From Rhea pennata (lineage: Eukaryota > Chordata > Aves > Rheiformes > Rheidae), in assembly GCF_028389875.1 (NCBI RefSeq), contig NC_084678.1:16584899-16648898 (forward strand): a DNA stretch of 64,000 bases, in the 5' to 3' direction. Positions 3,901-63,800 of this stretch are shown here, in pieces; position 1 is the first letter of the stretch, and each line of letters begins with the position of its first letter. The notes beneath the pieces are model-generated. The model was given only the letters and a program-made list of their open reading frames with translations. It was not told the DNA's origin and ran no database searches. The translations under genes were made by a program, and so were the position numbers.

Positions 3901-5695
3901 AGCATGGCACAGCATGGCACAGTGCAGCACAGCCCGGGCCCCACCGCTCCGCTCCCTGGCGCGCTGCTCCGCGCGCGGGGACGCGCTCGATGCAGCGTGG
4001 CGGCGGGGCGCCAGGACACCCAGGTCCCCTCCGCCGCCCTTCCCGCAGCCGCTCGACACGGTGCCTCCCGTGCTCGGCCGAGAGAGGGGCTCCGTGGAGC
4101 CGCCGGCGCCAAGCGCTTGCCCCGGGGACACCGCGCGCTTTGCGCCCGCGCCGGGGGGAGCGCGCTGGCCTTGCAGCGGCAGGGATGGAGGGGATAAACC
4201 AACCCCGCAGCCAGCGCCGGGCACTTCCCGGGAAGCTCTGCGTCGCCGGGCGCTGCATTCCCCCCACTGGCCGCGGGGCTCAATATACCGCGGGGCTCTG
4301 CGCCGAGCCGACGCCGCGTAAGGCTCCGCCGAGCCGCGCGGGGGCCGGGAGCGAGGCGCCGGCGGGAGCAGCCTCCGGCCGAGAACCGCCCGGTCGGGCG
4401 GCCCCAATTAGCGGTGGATAATTACTGCTGCTGGCGGTGGCGGCGGCGAGGGGCCGGTTCGGGGCGCTGCGCGCTGACGCCGTGCCCTTGCCTCCGCGCC
4501 GCCCGGCAGCGCCAGACCCACGGCCGAGGAGGTGCGGGGCTGGGCGCAGTCCTTCGACAAGCTGATGAAGAGCCCGGCGGGCCGCAACGTCTTTCGGGAG
4601 TTCTTGCGGACTGAGTACAGCGAGGAGAACATGCTCTTCTGGCTAGCGTGCGAGGAGCTCAAAAACGAGTGCAACAAGCACAGCATCGACGAGAAGGCGC
4701 GGGTGATCTACGAGGACTACATCTCCATCCTCTCGCCCAAGGAGGTGCGCCCCCCCCCCCCCCCCCCCGGGTTTTGCAGCGCCGGGCAGCTGCCTCCTGC
4801 TTTTGCACCGCAGTGGCGAGACCATCACCCGCGGCGGCTCCCGGCAGCGTCCCTCGCGCGCGGTGCGGCGGGTCCCGCGGCCGGGCGGGAGGGGACCCCC
4901 GGGCCGGGGGCCAGAACTGCACGAGGGCACCGGCGTGGCCGAAAAGATGCTGCATCCCTGGGCCGGGGGGTGGGGGGGCACCCCAGCATGAGAGCGTCCC
5001 TGGGGTGGGAGCACCCTGCAGTGGGGGCACCCCAGCATGGGAGCGTCCCTGGGGTGGGAGCACCCTGCAGTGGGGGTGTCCATGGCATGGGGGCGCCCAT
5101 GGGGTGGGGGCACCCCACAGTGGGGTACCCCAGCATGAGAGCGACCCTGGGGTGGGAGGACCCTGCAGTGGGGGTGTCCATGGCATGGGGGCGCCCATGG
5201 GGTGGGGGCACCCCACAGTGGGGGCACCCCAGCATGGGAGCGTCCCTGGGGTGGGAGCACCCCACAGTGGGGGCACCCCAGCATGGGGGCATCCATGGGG
5301 TGGGGGCTCCCCGGCATGGGAACATCCCTGAGGTAGGAACACCCCAGCTTGGGAGCACCCCACGGTGGGAGCCCCCCCGTCTGCCTCCCGGTGCAGCGCC
5401 ACGTTCCCGCCCCACTTCTCCGCGGCGGTGGGAGGGAGGGAGGGAGGGTGCCGGGACCCGGCACCGGGGCGGCCCCGCTCACGGCCGCTTCTCTCCCGGC
5501 GCCCAGGTGAGCCTGGACTCGCGGGTGCGGGAGGTCATCAACCGGAAGATGCAGGAGCCGTCCTCGCACACCTTCGACGACGCGCAGCTGCAGATCTACA
5601 CGCTGATGCACAGGGACTCGTACCCCCGCTTCCTGAACTCGGCCATTTACAAAGCGCTGCTCCAGAGCGTCTCCCGCGCCTCCTCGGAGGCCTAG
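908..5695 (+). CDS. RGS19: RGS19 (GAIP), regulator of G-protein signalling, five coding exons
   Basis: GTPase-activating protein for Gi/Go/Gz alpha subunits; it acts at membranes and clathrin-coated vesicles. Exons: 908-940, 2110-2246, 3158-3232, 4510-4744, 5507-5695. All junctions are GT-AG and in phase, giving 222 residues from ATG 908, or 199 from the internal ATG 2146 (human is 217). The cysteine string CCFCWCCCCSCSW (residues 45-57) is the palmitoylation region of the RZ/A subfamily. The RGS domain follows at about residues 95-211, with SPAGRNVFREFL, EENMLFWLACEEL and the conserved DAQLQIYTLMHRDSYPRFL. The C-terminus SSEA matches the GIPC PDZ ligand of human GAIP. Exons 2-5 are secure. 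Exon 1 is inferred: its reading (MARRPLRPPEQ) joins exon 2 in phase 0 and matches the human N-terminus in length. An alternative 5' exon at 1817-1959 would force use of ATG 2146. Confidence 0.95.
1817..1959 (+). other. RGS19: Possible alternative RGS19 5' exon
   Basis: A pyrimidine-rich acceptor ending CCCCGCAG and a donor CAG/GTGAGG bound 143 bases. The last in-frame codons read VHEAGTQ, resembling the human PHEAEKQ segment, but there is no in-frame ATG and the length is not a multiple of three. It could be a noncoding exon of an alternative transcript starting translation at 2146. Confidence 0.35.
2034..2059. repeat. (GGAC)n microsatellite
   Basis: Six GGAC units lie in the intron before RGS19 exon 2. 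A pentameric GGCGC run follows the exon at about 2258-2282. Confidence 0.85.
2110..2246 (+). CDS. RGS19: RGS19 exon 2, cysteine-string exon
   Basis: Acceptor TGCCCGCAG, donor TCGTG/GTACGT, outgoing phase 2. It encodes MSRHEAS... (human MSSHDTA) and the cysteine string. The internal ATG is at 2146. Confidence 0.9.
3158..3232 (+). CDS. RGS19: RGS19 exon 3
   Basis: Acceptor CCCCGGCAG, donor GCCTG/GTGAGC. It encodes WNEDRERAWRASRETKLE and more, matching human NQERRRAWQASRESKLQ. The 75 bases keep phase 2 throughout. Confidence 0.93.
3290..3930. repeat. GTGCA/GCATG-based minisatellite in RGS19 intron 3
   Basis: A dense tandem array is built from pentamer-like blocks (GTGCA, GCATG, GCACA/GCACG, GCAAG) arranged in units of about 30 bases with longer higher-order units. 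Both strands are open in several frames, giving spurious Cys/His/Gln-rich proteins of over 300 residues. Segments such as GCAGTGC...GCACTGC are inverted and could form hairpins. Confidence 0.95.
4510..4744 (+). CDS. RGS19: RGS19 exon 4, N-terminal half of RGS domain
   Basis: Acceptor CGCCCGGCAG, donor AAGGAG/GTGCGC, phase 0 out. It encodes the alpha1-alpha5 part of the RGS box, including SPAGRNVFREFLRTEYSEEN. The donor is followed at once by a run of about 20 cytosines. Confidence 0.97.
4975..5375. repeat. About 33-36-bp minisatellite in RGS19 intron 4
   Basis: About ten imperfect copies of a unit built on GGCACCCCAGCATGGGAGCG followed by a CCTGGGGTGGGA-type half. The array fills most of the last intron and keeps frames open on both strands. 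Confidence 0.93.
5507..5695 (+). CDS. RGS19: RGS19 exon 5, C-terminal half of RGS domain and stop
   Basis: Acceptor GGCGCCCAG. It encodes VSLDSRVREVINRKMQEPS and the rest of the RGS box, ending SSEA and TAG at 5693-5695. This is nearly identical to human RGS19 as I recall it. Confidence 0.98.
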   Translation: MSLDSRVREVINRKMQEPSSHTFDDAQLQIYTLMHRDSYPRFLNSAIYKALLQSVSRASSEA

Positions 5696-9896: not shown

Positions 9897-28816
<18,920 letters not shown>

Positions 28817-40305: not shown

Positions 40306-40543
40306 TTCCAGCTCAGCATCATCCCAAAAGTTTTTTTTGGGGGGAAAGGGAAAAAACAAACAAAAAAAATCTAAAACCCCCCCAAACAAAACAAGCCGAC
40401 CCTGAACCCCCTGAAGCCGCCCCAGCGCAGGCGAGGGAGGCGAGCGGCTGTGCTCCCTGCTCGGCAGCTCCTCGGACCCGGTGGACGCGGCGGGACCCGG
40501 TTCTCACCCGGTCGAGTCGGACACAAAGTGCTGTCCAGCTGGA

Positions 40544-40946
40544 ATGAATATATCTGAGTCAAACTACTGCCGAGAGGAGATACCGCAACCCCGGGGCGAC
40601 TGTTCATGGGTCACCGCCGCCGGGCCGGCCGCTGAGCCCGGGCTCGCCTTCCCGCGCCCCCCGGGAGCCGCCTCCCCCGCCAGCCGCACGCCCAGCCCCG
40701 AGCCCGGCTTCGCCTTCGGCCCCGGCGCCGGCGGCGCGGCGCCCGGCGCGGCCCCCAGCCGCACGCCCAGCCCCGAGCCGGGCTATGGATACAGCCCCCC
40801 GGCGGGCCGCGCCGACGGCAAGGCCGGCGAGGACTCCCGCATCCGCCGGCCCATGAACGCCTTCATGGTCTGGGCGAAGGATGAGCGCAAGCGGCTGGCG
40901 CAGCAGAACCCCGACCTGCACAACGCCGTGCTCAGCAAGATGCTGG
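40544..40946 (+). CDS. SOX18: SOX18 exon 1
   Basis: N-terminal region rich in Pro/Ala/Gly, then the first half of the HMG box ([23 protein letters not shown]). Donor CTGG/GTGAGC. Confidence 0.97.
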
Positions 40947-43227
40947 GTGAGCGGGGCCGCGCCGCGGGCTGCGGGGCTGCGGGAGCCGCGCTGCACGGGA
41001 CCGGGGCGGCTGCGGGAGGCGGGCTGCAAGGGTGTGGGGCTACAGGAGTCAGGACGCAAGGGAACGGGGCTGCAGGAGCCGGGGCTGCAGGAGCCGGGAT
41101 GCACGGGAATGGGGCAGCTGTGGGAGCCAGGATGCAGGGGTACAGGGCAGCGGGAGCCGGGACTCAAGGGCACAGGGTGACTGCGGGAGCCGGGATGCAA
41201 GGATGCAGGCTGCAAGGGTAGAGAGGGCTGTGGGATACAAGTCTGTAAGGATATGGGGCTGTGGGGTGCAGGCGGCAAAGGTACCAGGGCTGCAGGGTAC
41301 AGGGCTGCGGGATGCAGGCTATGAGCTGCAAGGATACAGCAGTGCAGAGGTGAGGATGCAGGGATGTGGGCTACAGGCAGCCAGGATACGGGGCTGTGGG
41401 CTGCAAGGCTGCAGGATGTGGGCTGCAAGGATTTGGGGCTGCGGGATGTGGGTGACGCAAGGCTGTGCTCTGCCAGGCTACAGCCTGCAAGGATTCGGGG
41501 CTGTGGGACACAGGGCTGCAGCCGGCAATGATATGGGGCTGCAGGGTGCAGGCTGCAAGGATGCAGGGCTACAGGATGCAGGAAAGGGTTGTGGGATGCA
41601 AGGATATGGGGTGTGGGGACCTGGGGCTGTGGGGACCTGGGATGCAGAGATACAGGGCTGCAGGATGTGGGGCTCAGGGCTGCAGGAATACAGGGCTGCA
41701 GGTGTGCAGGATACAGGGACTCAAGGCTGCAGAAGGTGCAATACGGGGCTACAGGACACGGGGCGGTAGGATGCAGGATGTGGGAATACGGGAAGCAGGA
41801 TTTAGGTAGACAGGGCTGCAGGATGCAGGAACATGGGAAGCAGGATATGGGCAGACAGGGCTGCAGGATGAGGGATGCAGGGAGGGATGCACAGCTGCAG
41901 GGTGCAGAGATAAGGGATTCAGGATGCAGCGTTTGCGGACAGGGGATTTGGGCTGCGGGATGCAGAGAAGCGGCGCTACGGGTGCGGGGCTGTGCCAAGG
42001 GAGCAGCAGGAGGCAGAGGGGCAGCCCAGCAGAGCCTCCGGGCAGCCCGGGACCCTGCCCACCGGAGGGGTCGGTCCTTCGCCTCCCCGGGGCTTTGCAT
42101 CGCCCTTTCTCGCTGCTCCTCTCCAAAATGTTGGGCACAACCCGCTCTCGGCTGCCGGGGGGCAGAGCCGGAGCCCTGCTCCGGGGCTTGCTCCCGTTTC
42201 CCAGCCTGCTCTCGTGCCAGTGCTGGGACCCAGGTCAAGCCCTGAGTTGGCCACGGGAGCCCTCCCCACACCCGAAGTGCCCCGTCCTCGGGTGCCCCTG
42301 CGCCCTGGCCGCCCGGCCGCCCTGCCGCCACCAGGAAGCCGAGCGGGTTTCACAGAGCCTCGCTTTCCCCTTCCAGGCCAGTCGTGGAAGGCGCTGAGCG
42401 CCAGCGACAAGCGTCCCTTCGTGGAAGAGGCAGAGAGGCTGCGGATCCAGCATCTACAGGATCACCCCAACTACAAGTACCGCCCAAGGAGAAAGAAGCA
42501 AGCCAAGAAAATCAAGAGGATGGAACCCAATATCCTCCTCCATAACCTTTCCCAGCCTTGCAGTGACAACTTCAGCATGAGTCACCATGGTGGCAGCCAG
42601 CCGGGCCACCCCCAGCCTCCCCCACTTAACCACTTCAGAGAACTCCACTCCATGGGGTCGGATATTGAAAACTATGGCTTGCCAACTCCTGAGATGTCTC
42701 CCTTGGATGTCTTGGAACAGACCGAGCCAGCGTTTTTCCCTCCGCACATGCAGGATGACTGCAACATGATGCCCTTTCGCGGCTACCACCACCATCACCA
42801 GATGGAGTTTCCCCAGGAGAAGTGCATCGGGCGGGATGTGGCGGTGCCCTATGCGCAGACCCCCTCGCATCTGGCCGATGCTATGAGGACTCCCCACCCG
42901 TCCAGCATATACTACAACCAGATGTGCTCGGGAACTCAGAACGGGCTTTCGGCCCACCTGGGCCAGCTCTCGCCCCCTCCCGAAGCCCACCACATGGAGA
43001 GCGTGGAGCACTTGAACCAAACCGAGCTCTGGACAGACGTCGACCGCAATGAGTTTGACCAGTATTTGAACATGAGCAGGACTCGTCCTGAAACCTCAGG
43101 ACTCCCTTACCATGTCTCCCTGTCCAAAGTGACTCCTAGAAGCATCTCCTGCGAGGAGAGCAGCTTGATATCTGCCCTGTCCGACGCCAGCAGCGCTGTT
43201 TACTATAGCCCGTGCATCACCGGTTAG
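40544..43227 (+). CDS. SOX18: SOX18, SoxF HMG-box transcription factor, two exons
   Basis: Nuclear transcription factor for endothelial, lymphatic and hair/feather development. Exons 40544-40946 and 42377-43227 with GT-AG sites (ATGCTGG/GTGAGC; TTCCAG/GCCAG), phase 1, give 417 residues (human 384). The HMG box runs from about residue 98 to 175 ([20 protein letters not shown] ... [10 protein letters not shown]), split by the intron after SKMLG as in all SoxF genes. The conserved EFDQYL motif (360-365), used for beta-catenin contact in SoxF proteins, and the C-terminal [17 protein letters not shown] block are intact, which sets SOX18/SOX7/SOX17 apart from other SOX groups. Start chosen: first ATG ([12 protein letters not shown]); an in-frame GTG at 40481 is rejected. 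The N-terminal region carries a duplicated SRTPSPEPG segment. Synteny next to TCEA2 supports SOX18 over SOX7/17. Confidence 0.98.
40947..42376 (+). repeat. SOX18: SOX18 intron with GGGCTGCAGGATGCA-type minisatellite
   Basis: From about 40970 to 41960 the intron is a degenerate array of short units (GGGCTGCAGGATGCAGG and variants with GGATATGGGGCTG), roughly 9-18 bases each. It keeps frames open on both strands, producing false proteins of hundreds of residues. The last 400 bases of the intron are non-repetitive. Confidence 0.93.
42377..43227 (+). CDS. SOX18: SOX18 exon 2
   Basis: Second half of the HMG box ([20 protein letters not shown]), a nuclear-localisation [10 protein letters not shown], a His-rich run YHHHHQ, the EFDQYL motif and the conserved C-terminus ending YYSPCITG. 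The stop is at 43225-43227. Confidence 0.98.
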
Positions 43228-51860: not shown

Positions 51861-52254
51861 ATTGCTTCCTTTTTTTTTTCTTTTCTTTCTCCCTTTTTTT
51901 CCCCCCCCTTTTTTTGGTGCGGGGGGGGGCGCGTGCACGTGTGCGGTCCCGGCGCCTCCCCGCGCCGCGGCGCTGGGACGCTGCGGGAGCCGCCGGGCCC
52001 GCGCACTGCCGCCGGCACGGCCGCGCTGCCGGGCTCCCCGCAAACACCGAGGAAACCTGGATGCTTTCGCGCGGGGTGGTTTAACGCAGCCGGGCGCCGG
52101 CACGCGCAGGGAGCGCCCCGGTGCTGCCCGAGGAGGGTCCCCGGGCGGGACGCGGAGGGCTGGCAGAGCCCGCGGCCCGCCGGCTCCCCGCGGCCCCGAG
52201 CGGGTCCCGGAGCGGGCGCCGGGCGGACGGGACCGTCGGAAGAATCCCGCCGCC

Positions 52255-52410
52255 GCCCGGGATTCACATCCATGTACTTATATGGCCTTCAAGCCGCGGC
52301 GGGAGCGTGCCCAGCGTCTGGAAATCCAGCTAGGACCAGATCCCTTCATTAGTAATTTCTTGTACATGACTTTCGAGGCCAGAGGGATTTGTTAAATTTG
52401 CAGGAGTGTT
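52255..52410. promoter_or_regulatory. Candidate regulatory element H
   Basis: A balanced-composition island holding CATTAGTAATTTC (homeodomain), TCACATCCATGTACTTATAT and TTTGTTAAATTTGC. Noncoding; inferred only from composition and motifs. Confidence 0.3.
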
Positions 52411-52694
52411 TTCTCGCAGTGCCACGGACCGGCTGCTGCCAGCACGTATTGGCTCGGCTCCGTCCGAGCCCGTCGCCTTGCACGACCCGCCGCTGCTCCA
52501 GCTTTCCCTTGCATCCAGCCCTCGGCGGGGAGCTCCTGGAGCAGGCTCAGCGCCGGGGCCCCGAGCGGCCGCGCGGAAACCCGCCGCGGCCCTAAAATAC
52601 TCCCGGAGGCGCCGGAGTGGCCCCCCACCCCCCCCGCGCATCCCCCCCCTTCCCCTGCGCCGGCCGGGCAGGCGGATGCTCCTTCCCCGCAGCC

Positions 52695-52745
52695 TCTGGA
52701 AACTTCGACCTTTTTTTATGGGTGCCATAAAAGTTATTTGTTAAT
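52695..52745. promoter_or_regulatory. Palindromic TTTTATGG-GTG-CCATAAAA element
   Basis: TTTTATGGGTGCCATAAAA (52714-52732) has perfect 8-base inverted arms around a 3-base spacer. TTTTATGG/CCATAAAA is a CDX/posterior-HOX-type site. The island also has GTTATTTGTTAATC. Confidence 0.4.
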
Positions 52746-53530
52746 CGGCCCCTGCGAGGTTTCCCCACCACCGGGGTCCGCGGCCTGGGCAGCGCCGAGG
52801 CAGCGCCGCTTTTTTTTGCCTTTTTTTTTTTTTTTGGAAGAAGCGAGGCTTTTTCCGAGCGGCTTTTTCGCTAAAGGGAGACGCCGGGCGGGGAACGAGC
52901 GGCCGCCCCACGCTTGTGTGGCTCGCGCTTCCGCGACCGCGGAAACCCCGCGGCAGACCCCGCGGAGGGAGCCCGGGCCCCGGGGGCGCCTCGCTTTGCA
53001 GCGGGGCAAAACCCCCCCCTTCCTCCGGGCGGACGGAGGAGGGCGAGGGCGGCAGGACGGGAGCCCCGGCCCCGCGCAGCGCCCGGCCCCGCCGGCAGCT
53101 CCGTGCCTTGCCGGTCCCTCCCAGGACCCGCGCCGGCAGCGGCCGGCCGAGGTCAGCCCCGAGCCGCAGGTCTCCCTTCCGAGCGGCCCCTGGAGCAGCT
53201 CTTCCCGGGAAAAGCAATTCCCCGGAGCAGCCCTTTCCGCGGGGCACGGCCAGGAGGTGCCTACGGCTCCGCGTTCCCTCGGGCAAAATATTCCCACCGG
53301 TGCCATCGCCCACCCTGGCCTCGCGGCGGGGACGTCGCCGGGACCGGGACGAGCCACCCCGGGACGTCACCGGCCAAAGCGGCTCCGGCCGCAGCGCCTG
53401 CCGAGCCCTTTGCCGGGCCCTTCCTCCGAAGCGGCATCTCCTCCTCCTCCTCCTCCTCGTCCTCGGCGGCGGCCCGGTTTCCAGCGCCGCCGGGCTGCGG
53501 GCGGCCGGGGAGGCTTTGGCAAAGGCGCCG
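52746..53530. other. CpG-rich intergenic block, no gene
   Basis: GC-rich DNA with T-runs at 52811-52836 and a CTCCTC run at 53428-53460. Long frames here are chance. Confidence 0.5.
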
Positions 53531-53534
53531 CTCG

Positions 53535-53760
53535 CGGGTTATTCAACAATTGTTTCCCATTTTGCGCCCTCGTCCTGCCTCATCCCCCAGTAACGATGAC
53601 GAAGAGCGGCGCGGAGCCAGCGCCCGCGGCAGGGGTGTTGGGATCGGGGACAGCACAAAAATATCTCCTCTCTGGAACAAATATTTACCAACCCTTCTGC
53701 CTTTTGTTCTTGTGGTTCCCATATATCTTTTTTTTTTCGTTTTTTTTTCTTTTCCCCCCA
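53535..53760. promoter_or_regulatory. Candidate regulatory element I with palindromic SOX site
   Basis: AACAATTGTT (53545-53554) is a perfect palindrome of two overlapping SOX half-sites. GTAACGATGACG and AACAAATATTTACCAAC follow in the same AT-richer island, 0.5 kb upstream of the Rh gene. Confidence 0.4.
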
Positions 53761-54085
53761 GACATTCGCTGGCAAAATGTCACGTTAAAGAGCAAACCCA
53801 GAAACTTCGGGGTAGCTGCCTGGCGCCTCTGCGCTTTGCTTTTCCCGCGCGCCGGTCGTCAGCGACTTCCCGGCCTTCGCGCCGCCGCGAACCTGCGCGG
53901 GACCGAGCGCTGCGGCCCGCTCCGGGGCTTCCCGCGGCGGGGCCGGGGCACGTCTCGTCTTCTGGACGTTGACTTATGGCTCCGGTTAAAAATTAACCCC
54001 GGCAATAAAATCGCGAATGCGCGAGGGCAGCAGCGCTCGCACTGGCTCACCCCCCCCCCCCCCGCCGGCCGGCCGGGCTGCGTCC

Positions 54086-54122
54086 GTCCCGTCCCGTCCC
54101 GTCCCGTCCCGTCCCGTCCCGT
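54086..54122. repeat. (GTCCC)n pentanucleotide repeat
   Basis: About seven GTCCC units lie directly upstream of the Rh gene start, probably in its 5' UTR. Confidence 0.9.
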
Positions 54123-54172
54123 CGGAGGCCAGCCTCGCTCGCCGCCTCCTCTGCCCCGCGGAGGCCGCGCCG

Positions 54173-55594
54173 ATGGCCCCGGCGGCGCCCGGCAGCCTCC
54201 GGTGCCGCTTGCCCGCCTGCCTGGGGCTCTTCCAGGGCGTCCTGCTGCTCTTCTTCGTCCTCTTCGTCTCCTACGACGAGCACGCGGACGCCGCCTCCCA
54301 GGCGGTGGACGCCGACCCCGGCGCCAACCAGCTCTACAGCGTCTTCCCCTTCTTCCAGGACGTCCAGGTGATGCTGGTGGTGGCCCTGGGCCTCTTGCTG
54401 GCATTCATGCCGCGCTACGGGCTCGGCGCGCTCGCCTACAATTTCCTGCTGCTCAACTTCTCCATGCAGTGGGCTCTGGTCCTGCAGGGCTTGCTCTACC
54501 ACTTCCACCACGGCAAGGTCCACATGGGCCTCCACAACATCCTCGTGGCAGAGTTTGCTGCGGTGACGGTGCTGATCTCCATCGGAGCCGTCCTGGGGAG
54601 AATCAGCCCCTTCCAGCTCCTTCTCGCCGCCTTCTGTGAAATCCCCGTCTACCTCGCAAGCGAGTGGGCCATCATGACCTGGCTGAAGGTCCTCGACGTG
54701 GGAGGAACCATCACCATCCACATCTTTGCATGCTATTTTGGCCTCGGCATGTCCAAGGCTCTGTTCCGGCCAGGAAAGCAGCTGAGGCTTCGCAAGGAAA
54801 ACCCAACTTACCAGTCCGACCTCCTGTCCCTCACCGGGATGCTCTCCCTCTGGGTTTTCTGGCCCAGCTTTGTGGCTGCCCTTTGCCAGCCGGGGGATGC
54901 CCAGCACCGGGCAGTGCTGCACACCATCCTCGCGCTCAGCGCCAGCGCCCTGACCACCTTCCTGGCCTCCGGGCTGCTGGAGAGACGCGGCAAGCTCAGC
55001 GTGGGCCACCTGCAGAACGCCAGCCTCGCCGGAGGGGTGGCCATCGGGGCGCTGGCCAACATGATGATCACGCCGGCCGCCGCCTTGGCCCTGGGCAGCC
55101 TCTCGTCTCTGGCCTGCGTCCTCGGGTTCAAATTCCTGGCGCCCTTCTTGGCGAGGAGGCTCGGGCTCCTGGACCAGTGCGGCATCCACAACCTCCACGG
55201 GCTGCCCGGCATCATCGGCGCGGCGGCCGGCGCGGTGGCCATCCTGCTGGCCTCCGAGGAGACCTACGGGCATCGCTTCTACCAGGTCTTCCCGGCCCGC
55301 GGGCCGCCCGGGGGCAACGCCAGCCTGGCGGCGTCCCGGCCGGGGGCGAAGCCGGGCCGGAGCGCCTCGGAGCAGGCGCTCTTCCAGGCGGCCGGGCTGG
55401 CCGTAGCCGTCGGCGGCTCCCTGCTCGGGGGGCTCCTCACCGGCACGCTGCTCCGGCTGCCCGGCCTGGCCCAGCCGCCCCAGCAGCTCTGCTCGGACGA
55501 CGCGCTTTACTTCGGGATCCCGGACGCGGCCGAGGCCTCGGAGCCGGACGGCCCCGCGGAGGAAGCCCGCCTGGCCCTGAAGGAGCGGGTTTAA
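54173..55594 (+). CDS. Intronless Rh-family ammonium/CO2 channel glycoprotein (Rhp2/RHCG-like)
   Basis: A polytopic plasma-membrane channel for NH3/NH4+ (and possibly CO2), 473 residues in one uninterrupted exon. About twelve hydrophobic segments can be read, from residues 14-33 to 405-429. Family hallmarks: FQDVQVM (61-67), NFLLLNFSMQWALVLQG (90-106), D175 and the twin pore histidines H183 (GGTITIHIFACYFGL) and H342 (CGIHNLHGLPGIIG), WPSF (230-233), and QNASLAGGVAIG (281-292). The RHCG-type first-loop glycosylation site (NLS) is missing; NAS at 382 is a possible substitute. Start 54173 (CCGATGG) fits the family N-terminus; the frame stays open 52 codons upstream in low-complexity DNA. RHAG, RHBG and RHCG normally have about ten exons, so the single exon points to a retrogene or a lineage with intron loss. 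I cannot settle Rhp2 versus RHCG-like without a tree. Confidence 0.95.
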   Translation: MAPAAPGSLRCRLPACLGLFQGVLLLFFVLFVSYDEHADAASQAVDADPGANQLYSVFPFFQDVQVMLVVALGLLLAFMPRYGLGALAYNFLLLNFSMQWALVLQGLLYHFHHGKVHMGLHNILVAEFAAVTVLISIGAVLGRISPFQLLLAAFCEIPVYLASEWAIMTWLKVLDVGGTITIHIFACYFGLGMSKALFRPGKQLRLRKENPTYQSDLLSLTGMLSLWVFWPSFVAALCQPGDAQHRAVLHTILALSASALTTFLASGLLERRGKLSVGHLQNASLAGGVAIGALANMMITPAAALALGSLSSLACVLGFKFLAPFLARRLGLLDQCGIHNLHGLPGIIGAAAGAVAILLASEETYGHRFYQVFPARGPPGGNASLAASRPGAKPGRSASEQALFQAAGLAVAVGGSLLGGLLTGTLLRLPGLAQPPQQLCSDDALYFGIPDAAEASEPDGPAEEARLALKERV

Positions 55595-55896
55595 ACGCGC
55601 CGGCGCGGGGCCGCTGCCGGCGAGAGCCGGGTCCGTGTCGCACCGAACCGCCCGCGCCCCGGCCCCGCGCCTCCGGCAGCCCGAGGTTTTCCCTTCCTCC
55701 GCTCCGACCTCAGCCCCAGGGAGCATCCGTCCCCGCTCAGCTCCGGGGGCTTCCCGGGGACCCCCCAAGCCCGGCCCCAGCACCGGGTCTGGCAAACGGG
55801 GGCCGCCGGCGGCGAGACGAGGCGGCTGCGCCCGGGGAATCACCCGCCCGCCGTCGCAGGCAGGCTGCGCCGCGCTCGCGCGATTGCTAGAATAAA
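55595..55896 (+). other. 3' UTR of the Rh gene
   Basis: About 300 GC-rich bases ending at a canonical AATAAA. No A-tract or obvious target-site duplication follows, so if this is a retrocopy it is old. Confidence 0.6.
55891..55896 (+). terminator. Poly(A) signal of the Rh gene
   Basis: AATAAA in GCTAGAATAAAATATCGC, about 300 bases after the stop codon. Confidence 0.7.
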
Positions 55897-58800
55897 ATAT
55901 CGCTCGGCGCTGACGAAGGGATCCGGCCCGGCCGCCCGGCGCTGCGAACGACACGCGAACCCGCTCCGGCGCTGGCCCCACACCGGGCCGGCTCCGGGGC
56001 ACCGGAGCCAGCGGCGCCCTGGGGCGGCAGCTCCCGGCGTCCCCGTCCCGCTCGCGGGGCCGCGGGAAGCGGCAACGGGCAGGAACGCCGTGCACGTGCG
56101 CACACGCAGGCGCACGCACGCCCAAACACGCACACGCGTGCCCCCGCGTGCGCGGGCGCCCGGCCCGGGGACCTCCAGCTTCCCGCGGGGGCCGGCACAG
56201 AAACCCTCCCCGCTCCGCCGGCCTCGGCCCTTCGCAAACGCTGCCCCGCGGCAGCGCCCGAGCCTGGCGCCCCGAAGACACAGCTCCAGCGGGGAGGGGG
56301 GACCGGGCGGGCAGCCCCCCGCCCCGGCCGCCCGCCCTCGCTCCCCGTGGGGTGGCATCTCCGTGCCCGGGCGTCCCAGCGCCGTGGCACACGCAATCTG
56401 CTCGGCAGATGCTGCCGAAACCCGGCAACGGGGCCATAAAAGCGGCAGGGAGGGAGGGAGAGAAGGAGGGAGGGAGGCTCCCTACCCCCCCCCCCCCCCC
56501 CGGGACCCTGGCGTTATTTCTGTGCCGTTTCCAGCCCGTTCGGCACTCAGGGGCTTGTTGCGCTGCCCGGCACCGCGGGGCCACGGCCGGACGCCCCTCC
56601 GGCACAGCGTCCCCCCGGGATGCCGGACCCGCCGGAGCCGGGCACCGCCGCGCCGGCTCTGCCCGCTCCTCCGGAGCCGCCGCTCTCCGAAGGATGGAGC
56701 AGCGAAATATTAACCGGAGCCTCTAGCATTTATCTCGCCATAAATCAGTGCTTTCAACAGCTCTACAACGCCGCAGGCAGAGCGGAGCGAACAAAACGCT
56801 CTTCCCCGCGGTGGCACACAGGCTTCGGGCCCCCGGCACCCACTCCGCGAGACCCCCCGGGCCGGCTGCCTTCGGCGGGGGCGTCCCCAGGCAGGAGGGG
56901 CCGTGGCGAAGGGTCGGTACCGCGTCGGCTCCGGGGGGAACCGCAGCGATCCGCTCCCAGCCTGGCGCCCCAGGCCCGCTGGTGCTGTCGCCACCTCTGA
57001 ATCCAGCCCGGGGCCCGCACGCCGTGAGCAGCATCCGTGTCCCCCAGCACCGGCATGGCCCCCCGGCCCCCAAGAGACCCCTGTGCTCTGCCAAAGCTGC
57101 ACCCAGCCCACAAGAAAGGCAGCGAAACCGCGGTGCAACCCCGTCCCCGGGCGGGCACCGGCCGCCGGCTCCGTCCCACGCCGGGATTGCAAAGCGGGAG
57201 CCGAGGGGAGGAAGCCTGGGCTGGTTTTACGGCGGGCAGCCGCGGCCCCGGGCGGTGCCCCGCAGCACGCACACGTGCACGCAGGGCCGGCACACGCGTG
57301 CTTGCACCGCCCCACGCTGCACGCCCACAGCTGTTCCCGCACGCGCGTGTGCAAGCGCCCAGTGCGCAGGAAGCCCGCACGGGCCTGGAGCGAGGTGCCG
57401 ATGGGACGCCCGGCGGCCGGCACGGCGTGGGGCCAGGGCAGGCTGCTCCGCGGCGGGCGCTGAACCGCGCCGGAGCAGGCGGGAGCGCACGGCGCTGCCC
57501 CCGAAGGAAATGCGCTCACTGCCATGTGCTGTACACTTGGGTTTGCCTCGCTGCTATTTTTATTTGACTTTGCAGGCCCGTTTCCTTTTTCCGGCTGTTT
57601 TGCTGCGATTCCACCGTCGCTTCGACCTCGCTTTCCCCCTCCCTCCCTTTAGCCCCTTCCTTCGCTCTTTCCTTCCTTTCCATGCGCTCATTCCTGCCGC
57701 TGCACCGGGCTCCCTCTGCCCCGGCGCCGGGCTTGCCGTGAGCGCCCGCCGCAGGTGCCGCCGGGAGGAGCCGCCCGGAGCCCCGCGCCAGCGCGCCGGA
57801 TTATCCAGGAACGCGCTGGCAGCGCGGGACGGGGGGACGTCGCTGCAGGAGCCGCCGCGAGGGCCCTGGGCTCCTGCGCCCTGGGGGCTGCGCCCCGGCA
57901 CACGGGAGAAGCGCTGGCCCCAGGAGAAGTCGGGGGGGGGGGGCAAAGCTTGTGTTTGGGGTGGTTGCAGGGTCCCCCCTGCCTTTCTTCCCTCTGCTCG
58001 ATGCAATTAAAATCTGTCTGCATTTGCTCTCGATTAGGGAAAATTTGGGGGGGAGGGGGGAAGGAGAAGAAAAGCAAAACAGAAAAGAGCAAAGCGAACC
58101 CAAGCAGCGCTCCCACGCCGGAGCCCCCCCGGGGGCAGCGGAAAGGGCGCGAGGGAAACGCGGCTGCAGCACGCAGGGGGCTCGAGCCTGCAAAAGCAGG
58201 ACCCCCGCCCGCCCCCCCCCCCCCCCCCCCGAGCCGGCCGGGCCCCGCGCCGCCCGCGGGCTGCGGGACACGCGCCGCGGCCGGGCGCCACGCGCGGCCC
58301 GCTGCTGCCCCCTCGTGTCCGCCGTGGCGGGCTGCAGCGCGGCCGCTGCGCTGCCCCCGGGGCCGGGCCGGGCCGGGCCGGGCCGCAGCGAGGGAGAGCA
58401 GGCGGCGGCGAGGCGCGGGGAGCTTTCGCTTCCCCCCGGGAGCCCGGGCGGCTCCGCAGCCTCCGTCCACGCGCGCTCGCACGCAGGGGCGGCCGCCCAC
58501 GCGGGGAACGGCCGAGGGGGGGGGGGTCCCGCCACCCCGCAGGTCTCGGGGCGGCAGTCAGGCAGCAGGGGCGTTTGTCCGTGCACGCAGGCTGGACGCC
58601 CACCAGGGCCTGCCAGAAACGCAGGCCGGCCCCAGCGGCCACCCGCCCCCGTCCCGCTCCCGCTCCCGCAGGCGGCCGCGGGCCCAGCGAGCGGCAGGCG
58701 CTGCCCGGGCAGGGACGGGAGCACCCCGCAAGTCAGCGCCGCCTCCTTCTTCCAGCGCTTCCCCTCCTCTTCCCTCGGTCTGCGGTTTTGCAGCCGGCTT

Positions 58801-59040
58801 CTGCAGCCACCCCGCAGCGGGGGAGCCCGCCGGCGTCCAGCGCCCGTTCCCGGGGCATCGCGCGGGACGAGCGGGCGGATTCAACTCTGGCGCCCGGCGG
58901 CATCGCCTCCGCTGACTCCGGAGCTGAGCGTGGGATCAAGACACCTGCAGCGCCGAGCCCAGAGCGGCGTCGCTCTCCGGGGTGCGGGGTGGGTCCCCCC
59001 GGGAGCCGTTACCTGCCGGGGAGGGCGGGGGCAGCGGGCC
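55897..59040. other. Intergenic DNA between Rh gene and C20orf204-like gene
   Basis: Mostly CpG-rich. Small AT-richer islands at about 56700-56770 (GAAATATTAACC, GCCATAAATCAGTG), 57520-57600 (GCTATTTTTATTTGAC) and 57990-58050 (TGCAATTAAAATCTG) may be regulatory. C-runs at 56486-56500 and 58208-58230. No gene recognised. Confidence 0.45.
56083..56160. repeat. CACACGC/GTGCGC alternating tract
   Basis: Alternating CA/CG/TG dinucleotides (GTGCACGTGCGCACACGCAG and similar), Z-DNA-prone. A second such patch lies at 57255-57365. Confidence 0.75.
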
Positions 59041-59190
59041 CTAGGCGCCCCGCGCGTCCGGGCCGGGGGTGTGCAGCGCGTAGAGCTTCTCCCAGCACGT
59101 CGCCAGCCTCTCCGCCTTCCGCGCGATCTCCCTCAGCTGCTTCCTCCGGCGGCCGGGCTCCCCGCGCCGGGGCTGTGCCGGCGGGCTCTG
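59041..59190 (-). CDS. C20orf204: C20orf204-like exon 5 with stop
   Basis: Acceptor TGCTGCCAG; 49 codons ending TPGPDARGA and TAG at 59041-59043. A basic stretch PGRRRKQLREIARK leads into helix D with TCWEKLYAL, the strongest match to human. Confidence 0.88.
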   Translation of the reverse strand, partial: QSPPAQPRRGEPGRRRKQLREIARKAERLATCWEKLYALHTPGPDARGA

Positions 59191-62100
59191 CTGGCAGCAG
59201 GCCAAGGACGCCCAAAAAGATCCCCCACGGTTAGAGAGGGTGGGGTGGGGGAACGAAAGCCACGGGGGGGGGGGGTCGCGGCCGCCCAGCAAAGCTGCTG
59301 CCCGGCGCCGCGGCAGGGCCGTGCTCCGCGCGCGGCTCGGGTCCCCGGCGGAGCTGCGCAGCCCCCTCCCGCGCCAGGAAACCCCCGGGGAAGGGTTAAA
59401 CTCCAGTTTGAGCGCCCTACTGGATGCAGGCGCAGCCGGGGAGGGGGCACCGGGCCGCCCCGAGCTTCCCCCGCGGTCAGCGAGTTACGGGCTGCAGCCG
59501 CCGGGCGATGCCGCCTTGCTCGCACGCTCGCGCCCAAGCGGCTCCCACCTGGCACACCTTCCTGCAGTTCTCCCTGAGCACGAACTCGGTGTTTCTGGCC
59601 ACCTTCCACACGGCCGCCTCCTCGGGGTCGCGCAGGCTGCCGGCCGCCGCCTGCCGCAGGGACGTGCTGATGGTGTAGATGGACAGCAGGATCTTCTGGT
59701 CCTGCAAGAAACGGGAGAAAGCAGCCCCGCGCCCGGAGCGGGAGGCTGAGGGCTCCGGCCGGGGCTCAGCCCGCCCGGCCCCGCCGCGCGTCTCCCAGGC
59801 CTCGGCGCAGCCCGCGGCCGCCGCTCACCTTGTCCGAGCGGCAGGCCGGCCCGGCTCGGCCGCTCCGGTCCGTCGACCCGCTCAGGGCTTTCTGGAGGGA
59901 CGAAGCAAAGAGAAGGTCAGGCGCCCTGAAGCGCTCGTGCCAGCGCTCTGCCCCACCGCGCCGGCCAGGGACGTAACCCCGCGCTCGGCCTTCGCGGGCA
60001 CCATCTTCCCTGCAGCGGGTCCCCCCGCCACGGGCGCGGGCGGCCGCGGGCCGGGTGGCTTCGCACAGCGAGGCCTTGGACCCGTCCCCCCCCGCCGCAG
60101 CGCCGGGACCCTCGGCTCACCAGGTTCTGGATCTCGTGGAAGATGACGGCGCGGTACTGCCGCAGGATTTTGGCGATGCTGCACCTCTTGCCTCTGCTCA
60201 GCACGGAGACAACCAGGAGGAGCAGAACAGCGCAGGAGAGCGCCCTGGGGAGAATCTAGGCAGGGAAAGGCTCAGCGTCGCGGGAGGCACCGGGGGCAAA
60301 GGCAGGGCTCCAGGCGCTGCCAGCATCCCCTTGGCACAAGCCCGGAGCGGAGCTGTCCCCCCCTCCTGCTGCCTCGGCTCTTCCAGGCACAGCACGGGCA
60401 GGACGGAGAGCGACCACATCCTCTCCTAGGTGTCCTGCCCGGCAGGACGACCTCCTCTTGGATCTGCCCCGCCAGGCCGCTGGCTCAGCCCGCTCCCCAG
60501 CTCTCGCGGTCCAAAGCCGGGTGCTCGACCACCCAAAGCCAGGGGCAGCCAAGAGGGACGTGCCGTGCGCCGCGGCGGGGAGAGGGAGGCAGGGAGAGGG
60601 ACGTGGCGTGCGCCACGGCGGGGAGAGGGAGGCAGGGAGAGGGACGTGCCGTGCGCCGCGGCGGGGAGAGGGAGGCAGGGAGAGGGACGTGCCGTGCGCC
60701 GCGGCGGGGAGAGGGAGGCAGGGAGAGGGACGTGCCGTGCGCCGCGGCGGGGAGAGGGAGGCAGGGAGAGGGACGTGGCGTGCGCCGCGGCGGGGAGAGG
60801 GAGGCAGGGAGAGGGACGTGCCGTGCGCCGCGGCGGGGAGAGGGAGGCAGGGAGCCGCCTGTCCCCGCCAGCGAACCGCCACGGCTCGAGGCCGATGTTT
60901 TAGGGCACCTGCGGAAAGGTCTTTGCAGTCGCGCGAACCCAGGGCGAGGAGGCAGCGCGCAGCCGCTGCCGGGCGTTTGCTCAGCCCTCCCTCCCTCGCG
61001 TGCAGCGTCTCCTGGCCCGCGCTCGGCACCTCCTGCGAGAGCCCCGGGGCAGCGGGCGGTGGGAGAAGGCGGGAGGAGGGGGCCCGCGCAGCCGCCCCTC
61101 GGCGCTCCCAGGCGTCCCGGCTGAGCCGCGGCGGCCCCGGCAGCGCCGAGCGCGGCGGCTCCGGCGGGACCCTCCAAGGGATGGGGACAAGGCCAGGCGC
61201 TTTGAGGAAAAGCCAGCAGGACCTCAGGTGACCGCGACACCGGATATTTGAGCAGTCCCACGGCAGCGGGGCGAGGACGGGAAGCCCTGCGTCTGCCAGG
61301 AAGGGCTCGACAGCTCTCCGCCTCTGCCCGCTCCGCGCCGGCTGCCGACGCACCCGCGGCGCTGGGAGAGGGCACGGCGCCGGGGGCCCGTCCTGGCACG
61401 GGCACGCTCCCATCACCTCCTACTTTCTCCGGGAGCCCAGGGGCCGGGTTTCAGGTCTGAGCAGGCGGAAAGCAGCTCAGCTCCCTTGGAAAACGCAACC
61501 GCGCGCTGCAGGCAAGCGTGCGCGAGCCGGCGGCCGCCGAGCTCCCCCCGGCCGGGCAGGCGGCGTCCAGCAACGCGGGTGATTCCGGCTGCACCGTGGA
61601 GCTTTGCTTCCCCTTTCGCCCTGCGTCGTGGCGCGCTCTGCACCGGGTGCCAGCACCCGTCTGCCCCGCGGCACGGCCCGCGGCCCTGGGGGCTCGCTGC
61701 TGCTCCAGCCGCGTCTCGGCCAGCCGCGACGCGTTCGGCCCTCCGGCCCTTCGACGCAAACCGGAGGGCTCGCTTCCAGAGGCTGCATCCGATCCCGCGC
61801 GCACCCGCCGAAGGGCTAGTCCCGGCCCCAGGAGGCTCGGGCCGCCCGCCCTTGCCCTCCGGCTCGCAGCGGCGAGAGCCGAGCACGGGGCAAAACCCAA
61901 CGCGCTGCGAGTCTACAAATCCACAGACAGGGAAACTGTCCGAACAGATTAGCAAATTCACTTAAAACCGGTACAAATCCCACTGGGGTCCTTAGCTTTC
62001 CTAAGGAAAGGGCACGTTCCTGTTGGCCAGGGCTGGGCCCCGTCCGGGGGGCCACACAGGGCGGCGAAGGACCTCCCCGGGCTGCTAGCTTTGCCCCTCT

Positions 62101-63408
62101 GCAACCCCTGCAGAGGGGAGAGATCTTGCCCCAGAGATGATTCAGCACAGAACCACGGGCACAACCCTCGGAGACGCAGAGCGGGAACACCGCTTCCATG
62201 AGGATACCCCGTTCAAAGTCTAAGGGTTGCTCTCAGGAAGCCGCCGCCGCCAGGAAGACACGGCCACGCAGCCTTGCTCAAACCAGCAAGTCGGGAACGA
62301 CTTCCCTGAAGCGGCTTATTAAACAACTGGGCCCAAATTCCAGGAGAAAGCACACCACTTCCAGCATTTCCAGGCAGCCAGACCTGGCACCGAAAGCTCA
62401 GTCCCTAACAAGCGAGGAAGCGCAGTCTGCGGCGAGCAGCTGGGAGAGGAGCTCGGAGGGCGCAGGCGGCGCTCCCCACGACCGCCCGCGCGGCACGGAG
62501 CCTGCAAACCCCGGTCCTCCCCGCTGCCCGAGGCGGGGAAGAGGAGCTCAGGCGCCGGCCCGGGGGCGCTCCTTCCCCCGCCCCGCTCTGGGCCCCGCGG
62601 CGGCGCAGACCCCGCGGCTGCCGGCCACGCTGGGGAGGGACGCAGCCCCCCTCGCCGGCGGGGAGCACGGGTGCACGACGGGGCACAGTCGCAGCGCGCT
62701 CCGCTTGGCAGGGGAAGCTAATCTCTTCCCCAGCTCTAATCCTCCAACAAATAGAAGGAGATAAGGGAAATCACTGTTATTGATAGAGCAGTTCCTGGTG
62801 GCACCTGTGCTAGCCTCAGCCACCCAAGAAGCGAGGCACAAAACCCACTGCCTGCCCGGGAACCCACCGGGGGCCCCAGGTCCCTCTAAGCCAGATGGAC
62901 CTGCTCAGGCCAGGAGCCCCCTGCCCCGTCCTGCCCACAGCAGCCCTGCTGCTGACCCAGAGCCCCTGGGCCGGACCGGACCATCCATTCACCACATTGA
63001 GGACAAGCAACGCTCAAGCCCAGCTAGGTCCAAGCCCCATCCCCACCAGCCCAACCCCATCCCTGCCGGACCAGCCTTCTCCACCAGCTCCACGCCCCAT
63101 CCCAGCTGGACCAAGCCCTCCCAGCTCGGCCAGCCCCCTCCCAGCCGGGTCCGAGCCCCCTCCCGGCCAGAGCAGCCCCTTCCCCTCGGGGTTTGAGCCC
63201 CATCGTGCCTGGAGCAGCCCCCACTCCAACCACACTTCCCTTTCCGCCAGGTCCAAGTCCAAGCCGCATGGGTCTGAGCTGCATCCCAGCCAGGGAGAGC
63301 CCCTTCCCAGCCGCATCAGCCCTGTCCCGAGTGGTCCGAGCCCCCTCCCGGACGCCTGGAGCCCCAGATCGCAGAGCCATGGGGCAGCAGCCCCGACACA
63401 CTCACCAT
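59041..63408 (-). CDS. C20orf204: C20orf204-like secreted four-helix (cytokine-like) protein
   Basis: Function unknown. I read five coding exons on the minus strand: 63406-63408 (ATG only, inferred), 60121-60255, 59829-59891, 59549-59701, 59041-59190. All are GT-AG and phase 0, giving 167 residues. Residues 2-21 form a signal peptide (ILPRALSCAVLLLLVVSVLS). Four amphipathic helices are predicted: about 26-46 (CSIAKILRQYRAVIFHEIQN), 68-90 (DQKILLSIYTISTSLRQAAA), 92-118 (EEAAVWKVARNTEFVLRENC) and 130-158 (REIARKAERLATCWEKLYAL). Human C20orf204, as I recall it, shares CSxxxxLRxYRA, ILLSI, CR and ATCWEKLxAL, including four cysteines (here C26, C63, C113, C150), and lies next to SOX18. Secretion, four helices and phase-0 introns together resemble helical cytokines; that is inference. 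No stop or frame problem is seen. Exon 1 is the weakest part. Confidence 0.85.
59191..59548 (-). other. C20orf204: C20orf204-like intron 4
   Basis: 358 bases, GC-rich; nothing else seen. Confidence 0.7.
59549..59701 (-). CDS. C20orf204: C20orf204-like exon 4 (helices B and C)
   Basis: Acceptor GTTTCTTGCAG, donor TGCCAG/GTGGGA; 51 whole codons from DQKILLSIYT to ENCRKVCQ. Donor AAG/GTGTGC nine bases earlier is an in-phase alternative. Confidence 0.85.
59829..59891 (-). CDS. C20orf204: C20orf204-like exon 3 (A-B loop)
   Basis: 21 codons KALSGSTDRSGRAGPACRSD and K. Acceptor TCCCTCCAG, donor GACAAG/GTGAGC. It carries the loop cysteine matching human SCGAQK. Confidence 0.82.
60121..60255 (-). 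CDS. C20orf204: C20orf204-like exon 2 (signal peptide and helix A)
   Basis: Acceptor CTTTCCCTGCCTAG, donor AACCTG/GTGAGC; 45 codons with the hydrophobic core AVLLLLVVSVL and CSIAKILRQYRAVIF. The TAG just before the exon belongs to the splice acceptor, so translation must begin in an upstream exon. Confidence 0.87.
60553..60855. repeat. 43-bp tandem repeat, seven copies
   Basis: Seven nearly identical units starting AGAGGGACGTGCCGTGCGCC, period 43. Because 43 is not a multiple of three, each frame cycles through all three readings, giving a 43-residue protein period on both strands. The high copy identity suggests recent expansion. Confidence 0.97.
63030..63350. repeat. Degenerate CCCCTCCCAGCCGGGTCCGAG-type minisatellite
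   Basis: Around ten diverged units of about 27-30 bases (GAGCCCCCTCCCGGCC, AGCCCCATCC, CCAGCCGGGTCC). Gives Pro/Ser-rich chance frames. Confidence 0.85.
63406..63408 (-). CDS. C20orf204: C20orf204-like exon 1, ATG only (inferred)
   Basis: The minus strand reads GGGCTCCATG/GTGAGTGTG: a start codon directly followed by a near-perfect donor, in phase 0 with exon 2, at the edge of a CpG island. Joined to exon 2 it gives MILPRALSCAV, similar in length to human MVPPKPALWALL. Confidence 0.5.
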
Positions 63409-63800
63409 GGAGCCCCCCGCCGGCTCCCAGGGAGGGGGGCCCGGCCGGCCTTGCCACGTCCCGCTCCGCCGCCGCTCACGGTTTGAACTTGGCTCCACGA
63501 GCGGGGCCGCGGTGGGAGGAGACGGGTCCGGCCCGGCCCGGCCGCCGCGGGGGGGCACCGCGGCGGAGCAGCCGCCGGCGCAGCCTGGCTCCCGCTCGCC
63601 GCCTCGCCCGGGGGGCCGCCCCGAGGGGAAGCCCGAGGCGCTTCGCCGGGGCTGGGCGCCGGGAAAGGCGAGACGGCACCGAGCGAAGGGAGAGCCGGCT
63701 CAAGGATCCCAGCCTCCGGGAGCGGGCGGCCGCGAGGCACCCGTCCTGCTTCGGCGGCGAAGGGTCCTGCCTCGAGGTGGAGCGCACAAGGCTCCCCCGT
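63409..63800 (-). promoter_or_regulatory. C20orf204: CpG-island promoter of the C20orf204-like gene (inferred)
   Basis: CpG-dense DNA upstream of the proposed first exon, with no TATA box seen. It would also hold the 5' UTR. Confidence 0.4.

Follow-up and report, generated by a model that had tools for sequence, protein, structure and literature searches.

The likely bird ortholog of C20orf204 is a five-exon gene that probably encodes an orphan class I-like helical cytokine

The 64,000-nt stretch of Rhea pennata DNA analysed here (the window; GCF_028389875.1, NC_084678.1, 16,584,899-16,648,898, forward strand) carries on its minus strand a genuine protein-coding gene of five exons, which by its position is likely to be the bird ortholog of human C20orf204 and whose product is probably an orphan class I-like helical cytokine. 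That avian C20orf204 is a secreted four-helix class I-type cytokine acting via type I receptor chains is, in our judgement, reasonably probable. To our knowledge, few helical cytokines are still nameless or receptorless, and we know of no receptor for C20orf204. The cytokine likeness is not new as an idea because it has already been published for the human protein, which was likened in 2023 to interleukins and growth hormones by language-model hits (available part of PMC9992864). The features of the window are listed below.

63406..63408, minus strand: coding part of exon 1, ATG alone, followed by a GTGAGT donor in phase 0 (donor rank 2 of 186)
60121..60255, minus strand: exon 2, 135 nt, remaining signal peptide (ILPRALSCAVLLLLVVSVLS) and predicted helix A
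59829..59891, minus strand: exon 3, 63 nt, putative AB loop rich in G, S, and R, with Cys63
59549..59701, minus strand: exon 4, 153 nt, predicted helix B (69-87) and predicted helix C (93-117), Cys113, and Cys117
59041..59190, minus strand: exon 5, 150 nt, basic CD loop, predicted helix D (130-158), Cys150, and stop codon TAG
57559..57564, minus strand: poly(A) signal of AATAAA/ATTAAA type, possible 3' end of the C20orf204-like gene
40415..43224, plus strand: presumed SOX18 (named from its sequence), HMG box and C-terminal part in two open frames, downstream neighbour of the gene
10484..16352 (ends approximate), minus strand: partial gene, presumably TCEA2-like from its motifs, two exons seen
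4562..4730 (ends approximate), plus strand: exon taken from its motif to encode an RGS domain, RGS19 by position

Splicing these exons in silico gave the 167-residue product that the earlier note had assembled from five exons, with no internal stops. All four introns are GT-AG and, as that note had held, all four are in phase 0. When splice sites were scored with simple textbook weight matrices, the donors ranked 1, 2, 3, and 4 among 186 GT sites and the acceptors ranked 1, 3, 13, and 18 among 285 AG sites. From 52001 to 59041, no other poly(A) signal of this type was found on the minus strand. The least secure element of the gene model is the one-codon exon 1, whose start codon has a T at -3 though its donor is strong. 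An alternative exon 2 acceptor 11 nt downstream was rejected; it would require a first exon ending in phase 2, and the ATG exon does not provide this with a good donor. The model with ATG directly followed by GTGAGT was therefore retained.

Coding was assessed by base composition at each codon position. In the joined exons 2-5, GC1, GC2, and GC3 are 0.62, 0.52, and 0.94, and GC3 minus GC2 is 0.416, compared to 0.000 ± 0.048 in random open-frame segments; none of 20,000 random open-frame sets attained this value. The same difference is -0.05 to 0.09 in the four introns, 0.25 and 0.30 in the known exons of SOX18, and 0.36 to 0.48 in pieces of EPO. Exon 3 by itself has weak periodicity (GC2 0.76, GC3 0.91). 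It could be argued that no protein is made and that the locus is a decayed gene or yields a noncoding RNA, because the human locus was originally named LINC00176 and DNA of about 75% GC often has long open frames. We regard this as very improbable indeed, because such periodicity did not arise in any random set and the unbroken frame uses the four best-scoring donors. In addition, the available part of PMC7969625 describes the human protein as seen with an antibody and the human RNA as present in polysomes. Periodicity, open frame, and donors together bear out the earlier contention that this is a real gene and not a noncoding RNA.

The recognised neighbours of the gene are PRPF6, of which four open frames (5' exons) lie on the same minus strand about 21 to 28 kb past the end of the window, and SOX18 on the plus strand. 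The order PRPF6, SOX18, and then the TCEA2 and RGS genes equals the human order, which we take to be PRPF6 - C20orf204 - SOX18 - TCEA2/RGS genes. Thus, the Rhea gene is C20orf204 by position, which supports the earlier claim of a C20orf204 ortholog adjoining SOX18. A search of the Rhea genome found no second copy: four of the five matches were the gene itself and the fifth, on contig C61, had an E value of 0.36.

The N-terminus, M-ILPRALSCAVLLLLVVSVLS followed by RGKRC, has by inspection a hydrophobic core with V at -3 and S at -1. It is a standard-looking predicted signal peptide with cleavage between VLS and RGKRC, and the signal peptide proposed earlier stands. The signal peptide has one Cys (9) and the mature part five (26, 63, 113, 117, and 150). 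From residue 23 on the pI is 10.5, and there is an NLS-like stretch; no N-glycosylation sequon was found in the whole 167-residue product. AlphaFold2 predicted helices at 2-20 and 26-50 of the exon 4 peptide (mean pLDDT 81.6) and at 12-40 of the exon 5 peptide (mean pLDDT 81.0). Since the input was short single-exon peptides without alignment or decoy control, these models give helix propensity and not a bundle. Helix A, at about residues 26-46, was read from the amphipathic pattern in exon 2. Of the four amphipathic helices in the earlier note, therefore, B, C, and D are predicted from exons 4 and 5 and A stands by pattern only; its placing of helices A and D in separate exons agrees with exons 2 and 5 and their phase-0 introns.

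The layout of helix A, AB loop, helices B and C, and helix D, with phase-0 introns between them (introns 2-4), recurs in the Rhea genes THPO, IL6, and GH, if the helices within these genes and EPO lie where we take them to be. EPO fits this layout in part: its exon 4 acceptor was placed by eye and its exon 5 start was unplaced, so it was counted for introns 2-3 and the exon 4 donor. PRL was left out because the start of its exon 4 could not be placed. EPO, THPO, GH, PRL, and IL6 were named by Pfam hits and known sequences; by single exon the hits of EPO and THPO were weak (best E 0.019 and 3.42), and when joined with neighbouring exons both were over the cut-off. In the Rhea genome nothing from the IL2 and IL4 families, which are short-chain, passed the curated cut-off, and the comparison is therefore one with long-chain genes. 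Exons 2, 3, and 4 are 135, 63, and 153 nt in the C20orf204-like gene, 128, 87, and 165 nt in THPO, 128, 87, and 144 nt in EPO, 200, 114, and 147 nt in IL6, and 164, 117, and 162 nt in GH. Counted from and including its last Cys, exon 2 runs on for 21 residues in the C20orf204-like gene, 20 in EPO, 20 in THPO, and 18 in IL6; GH exon 2 has no such Cys. In long-chain class I genes a phase-1 intron follows a short first coding exon, as at intron 1 of THPO, EPO, IL6, and GH, whereas here the first coding exon, also short, consists of the ATG alone and intron 1 is in phase 0.

At E up to 10, searches with the spliced protein found no Pfam family and no PDB chain. Aligned exon by exon to EPO, THPO, GH, PRL, and IL6, it scored at chance level over all exons (z -0.79 to 0.94; 1000 shuffles, free end gaps leaving some alignments almost without overlap). 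Over all exons, the 15 pairs compared, those among the cytokine genes included, gave just two clear signals, EPO-THPO (z 9.6) and GH-PRL (z 17.1). The undoubted class I pairs EPO-GH and THPO-IL6 were likewise at chance, and this alignment is therefore powerless at this distance. The top single-exon score of the C20orf204-like gene, exon 4 against IL6 (z 2.0, 51 of 1000 shuffles), is one of its 15 single-exon tests and was not counted as evidence. Thus, of the cytokine identity claimed earlier, the fit of the exon-to-helix partition to class I genes stands, and homology is supported by no sequence search or alignment.

We propose that the avian C20orf204 ortholog encodes a small basic secreted protein in which removal of the signal peptide between VLS and RGKRC would leave about 146 mature residues. 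The mature protein would fold as a class I cytokine-type four-helix bundle with helices A to D in sequence: about 22 residues of AB loop would separate A from B, a 5-residue turn would make B and C a hairpin, and about 12 residues of CD loop would lead to D. Disulfides are likely between Cys26 and Cys150, joining helix A to helix D, and between Cys63 and Cys113 or Cys117, joining the AB loop to helix C. Outside the cell it may act by joining type I cytokine receptor chains, by analogy with EPO, TPO, and IL-6. More tentatively, with the chances slightly against it, C20orf204 could be an orphan class I cytokine that forms its own subfamily and was kept in birds and mammals alike, is apparently secreted and encoded by a single copy, and has a receptor yet to be recognised; its labels as a noncoding RNA and as a nucleolar cancer protein would then stem from mis-annotation and tagged overexpression. 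With its signal peptide, its fixed place by SOX18, and no second copy found, it is a candidate directly open to receptor screening. Should the proposal hold, what has been published on a nucleolar role in liver cancer would need rereading, and the bird ortholog with its intact exon layout provides a second lineage for testing C20orf204.

The protein might instead be helical and secreted, or kept in the ER lumen, without being a cytokine; it could be a basic binding protein, for instance, that is cytokine-like by size and helix content only. This is unlikely. In its favour, neither Pfam, PDB, nor exonwise alignment links the protein to any cytokine, helices of the predicted kind are common, and the composition is very basic. 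Against it stand an exon partition, phase-0 introns, and exon 2 Cys spacing that follow class I genes of the same genome, and published language-model hits that are interleukins and growth hormones (available part of PMC9992864). Another reading, to which we give little credence, is a nuclear or nucleolar protein that regulates nucleolin and rRNA synthesis, the role published for human C20orf204 in liver cancer cells, with the hydrophobic N-terminus unused for export. The resemblance of the bird N-terminus to a standard signal peptide argues against it. So does the fact that tagged overexpression can mislocate a very basic protein. In the available part of PMC7969625, human C20orf204 is reported to be mainly nucleolar and to bind rRNA, and its tagged form, which binds nucleolin, is found together with nucleolin and fibrillarin; EndoH-sensitive bands and partial ER localisation are described there too, as would be expected of a signal-peptide protein. 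In the literature searched on C20orf204 / LINC00176, as far as its text was available, no receptor or extracellular activity is reported; the available part of PMC13220464 has C20orf204 in its reference list only.

A class II helical cytokine of the interferon / IL-10 type seems to us improbable as well, although that class likewise has five coding exons with all phases zero, and on phase alone the gene fits it better than long-chain class I. IFN-upsilon was discovered by five coding exons, all phase 0, a signal peptide, and several helices, but its locus is between ADARB2 and PFKP (available part of PMC8863823) and not between PRPF6 and SOX18, which rules out identity with it. The second exon of IL10 in the same genome is helix-like (SKDDELSIQLLSSELLDEF) and its final frame is short, as read by eye with splice sites unplaced and the fourth exon not found, whereas exon 3 of the C20orf204-like gene is a G/S/R-rich loop and a single long last exon holds the final helix.

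The class I-type cytokine reading can be set beside the known systems. With human C20orf204 the Rhea gene shares the place between PRPF6 and SOX18, given the human order stated above, and a small, arginine-rich, multi-exon make-up. By published description the human protein has 189 aa, 32 arginines, and a possible N-glycosylation site at 72-74 (available part of PMC7969625), while the bird protein has 167 aa, 22 arginines, and no sequon. IFN-upsilon and other class II genes are like it in their five coding exons, phase-0 introns, signal peptide, and helices, but their helices seem otherwise divided over exons, judging from IL10. The IL-6 and growth hormone families (PF00489, PF00103) differ in longer exons 2 and 3, a phase-1 intron 1, and the lack of sequence similarity across all exons, and yet presumably split their helices alike over exons 2-5, with introns 2-4 in phase 0. 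The EPO / THPO family (PF00758) differs in its phase-1 intron 1, an AB-loop exon of 87 nt instead of 63 nt, and no detectable sequence similarity, but it also places the last exon 2 Cys 20 residues before a phase-0 intron (21 here), gives the AB loop its own exon, and presumably holds helices B and C within one exon.

The gene that the earlier note had spliced by hand from five exons was confirmed where it was claimed. All of its introns have GT-AG borders and are in phase 0, and the spliced product has 167 residues.

Coding exons of the C20orf204-like gene (positions in the window)
63406-63408, minus strand, exon 1, the coding part being the ATG alone
60121-60255, minus strand, exon 2
59829-59891, minus strand, exon 3
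59549-59701, minus strand, exon 4
59041-59190, minus strand, exon 5

Splice sites on the minus strand from 58900 to 63600 were ranked with simple textbook weight matrices. The four donors took ranks 1-4 among 186 GT sites, a ranking that alone is subject to selection because the donors may have been picked by eye in the earlier note, and the acceptors took ranks 1, 3, 13, and 18 among 285. In exons 2-5 joined together, GC at codon positions 1, 2, and 3 is 0.62, 0.52, and 0.94, and GC3 minus GC2 is 0.416, whereas the four introns range from -0.05 to 0.09. This value was equalled in none of 20,000 draws of random sets of open-frame segments of matched lengths, taken on both strands from the flank at 56000-59030 and from intron 1. 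The same test on known exons gave 0.25 and 0.30 for SOX18 and 0.36 to 0.48 for pieces of EPO; exon 3 by itself gave a weak 0.14. Because of the splice-site ranks and the codon-position test, this locus is almost certainly a real gene, and the claim that it codes for a protein and is not a noncoding RNA is upheld. Intron 1 carries 7.0 copies of a 43-bp unit with 97% match (60552-60854).

The genes recognised follow one another as PRPF6, the C20orf204-like gene, SOX18, a TCEA gene, and an RGS gene; SOX18 and the RGS gene lie on the plus strand, the other three on the minus strand. Four open frames in the neighbouring stretch L009, some 21 to 28 kb past the window end, represent the 5' exons of PRPF6. 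The human order and orientation are the same (PRPF6, C20orf204, SOX18, TCEA2, and RGS19), and the PRPF6 neighbour speaks against the related SOX17-TCEA1-RGS20 region. A search of the whole genome (1.27 billion bases, 180 contigs) found no second copy, four of the five matches being the gene itself and the fifth having an E of 0.36. Several open frames of the SOX18 intron (40951-42242) read as repetitive peptides, which points to short repeats.

The protein is very probably secreted, and the signal peptide claimed earlier fits residues 1-21 by inspection. Cysteines stand at five positions of the mature protein (26, 63, 113, 117, and 150), which has no N-glycosylation sequon, and the pI computed from residue 23 is 10.5. 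The claim of four helices held in part. AlphaFold2, run on single exons with no alignment, predicted helices 69-87 and 93-117 in exon 4 (mean pLDDT 81.6) and 130-158 in exon 5 (mean pLDDT 81.0), models that, made with no decoy peptides, are read as helix propensity only; helix A, at about 26-46, comes from the amphipathic pattern only. The connections of about 22, 5, and 12 residues, in order, would suit the crossover, hairpin, crossover of class I cytokines more than a plain up-down bundle.

The gene and its published likeness to cytokines are already known. In the available portion of a 2023 paper (PMC9992864), a language-model search for human C20orf204 leads to interleukin variants and growth hormones, AlphaFold2 aligns it to lungfish somatotropin, and BLAST and phmmer with it return the mouse protein only; therefore, the cytokine-like reading is already in print. 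The available portion of a 2021 paper (PMC7969625) describes the human protein as having 189 residues, being nucleolar, and binding nucleolin and rRNA. The same paper also shows EndoH-sensitive bands and staining of the ER, results that fit entry into the secretory pathway. In excerpts of two further papers, the cattle homolog is tabulated among genes raised in infection in gamma-delta T cells (PMC10628470), with an extreme log2 fold change of 22.6 that suggests near-zero control counts, and is one of the leucocyte genes that are lowered when cows carry a high load of herpesvirus (PMC7768445); neither entry is strong evidence. What is added here is a bird ortholog by position, a coding test, and an exon-to-helix match inside one genome.

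Neither a Pfam family nor a PDB sequence matched the protein at E up to 10, and exon-by-exon alignment with shuffles was at chance level against each of five cytokines when taken over all exons (z -0.79 to 0.94). Since EPO-GH, EPO-IL6, THPO-GH, and other cytokine pairs were likewise at chance, this alignment cannot decide cytokine kinship. According to an excerpt of PMC2654155, sequence poorly reveals helical cytokines, and exon structure was added evidence for the interferon-lambda family. A class II identity also has to be weighed, as IFN-upsilon was found, in the available portion of PMC8863823, by five coding exons all in phase 0, a signal peptide, and helices, all of which fit the C20orf204-like gene too. 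The same source places IFN-upsilon at ADARB2-PFKP, and therefore our gene is not IFN-upsilon. All-zero intron phases do not discriminate between the classes. The class II gene IL10, whose exons were read by eye and one of them not located, seems to divide its helices over exons otherwise, and the AB-loop exon together with helix D within a single exon favours class I.

The compared genes (IL6, GH, PRL, EPO, THPO, and IL10) were located by Pfam family searches, with weak matches for EPO and THPO, and the names that they carry are presumed from their sequences. PRL was excluded from the layout comparison because the start of its exon 4 could not be placed. A third locus of the growth-hormone/prolactin family lies at G000:C1:33418463-33420089. 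In IL6 (L021), the intron past the exon ending CLLSGFNE seems bordered by GC-AG and not GT-AG. EPO is often absent from bird assemblies; here the EPO-like gene (L026, G000:C137:11500-20500) is on a 22-kb contig, where repeat-like long open frames flank its exons and the border of the last exon is unclear.

The claim of cytokine identity is partly supported: the gene layout fits it, but there is no match in Pfam, PDB, or alignments, and intron 1 is in phase 0 whereas it is in phase 1 in EPO, THPO, IL6, and GH. On balance we lean towards a class I-like helical cytokine that acts on a receptor. In THPO, IL6, and GH, phase 0 occurs at each of introns 2 to 4, and the known structures place the end of exon 2 past helix A, the AB loop in exon 3, helices B and C in exon 4, and helix D in exon 5. 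EPO agrees as far as its exons could be placed. The C20orf204-like gene has this same plan with a smaller AB-loop exon, 63 nt as against 87 to 117 nt. Counting the cysteine, the distance from the last cysteine of exon 2 to the exon end is 21 residues, compared to 20 in EPO, 20 in THPO, and 18 in IL6; GH has no cysteine there.
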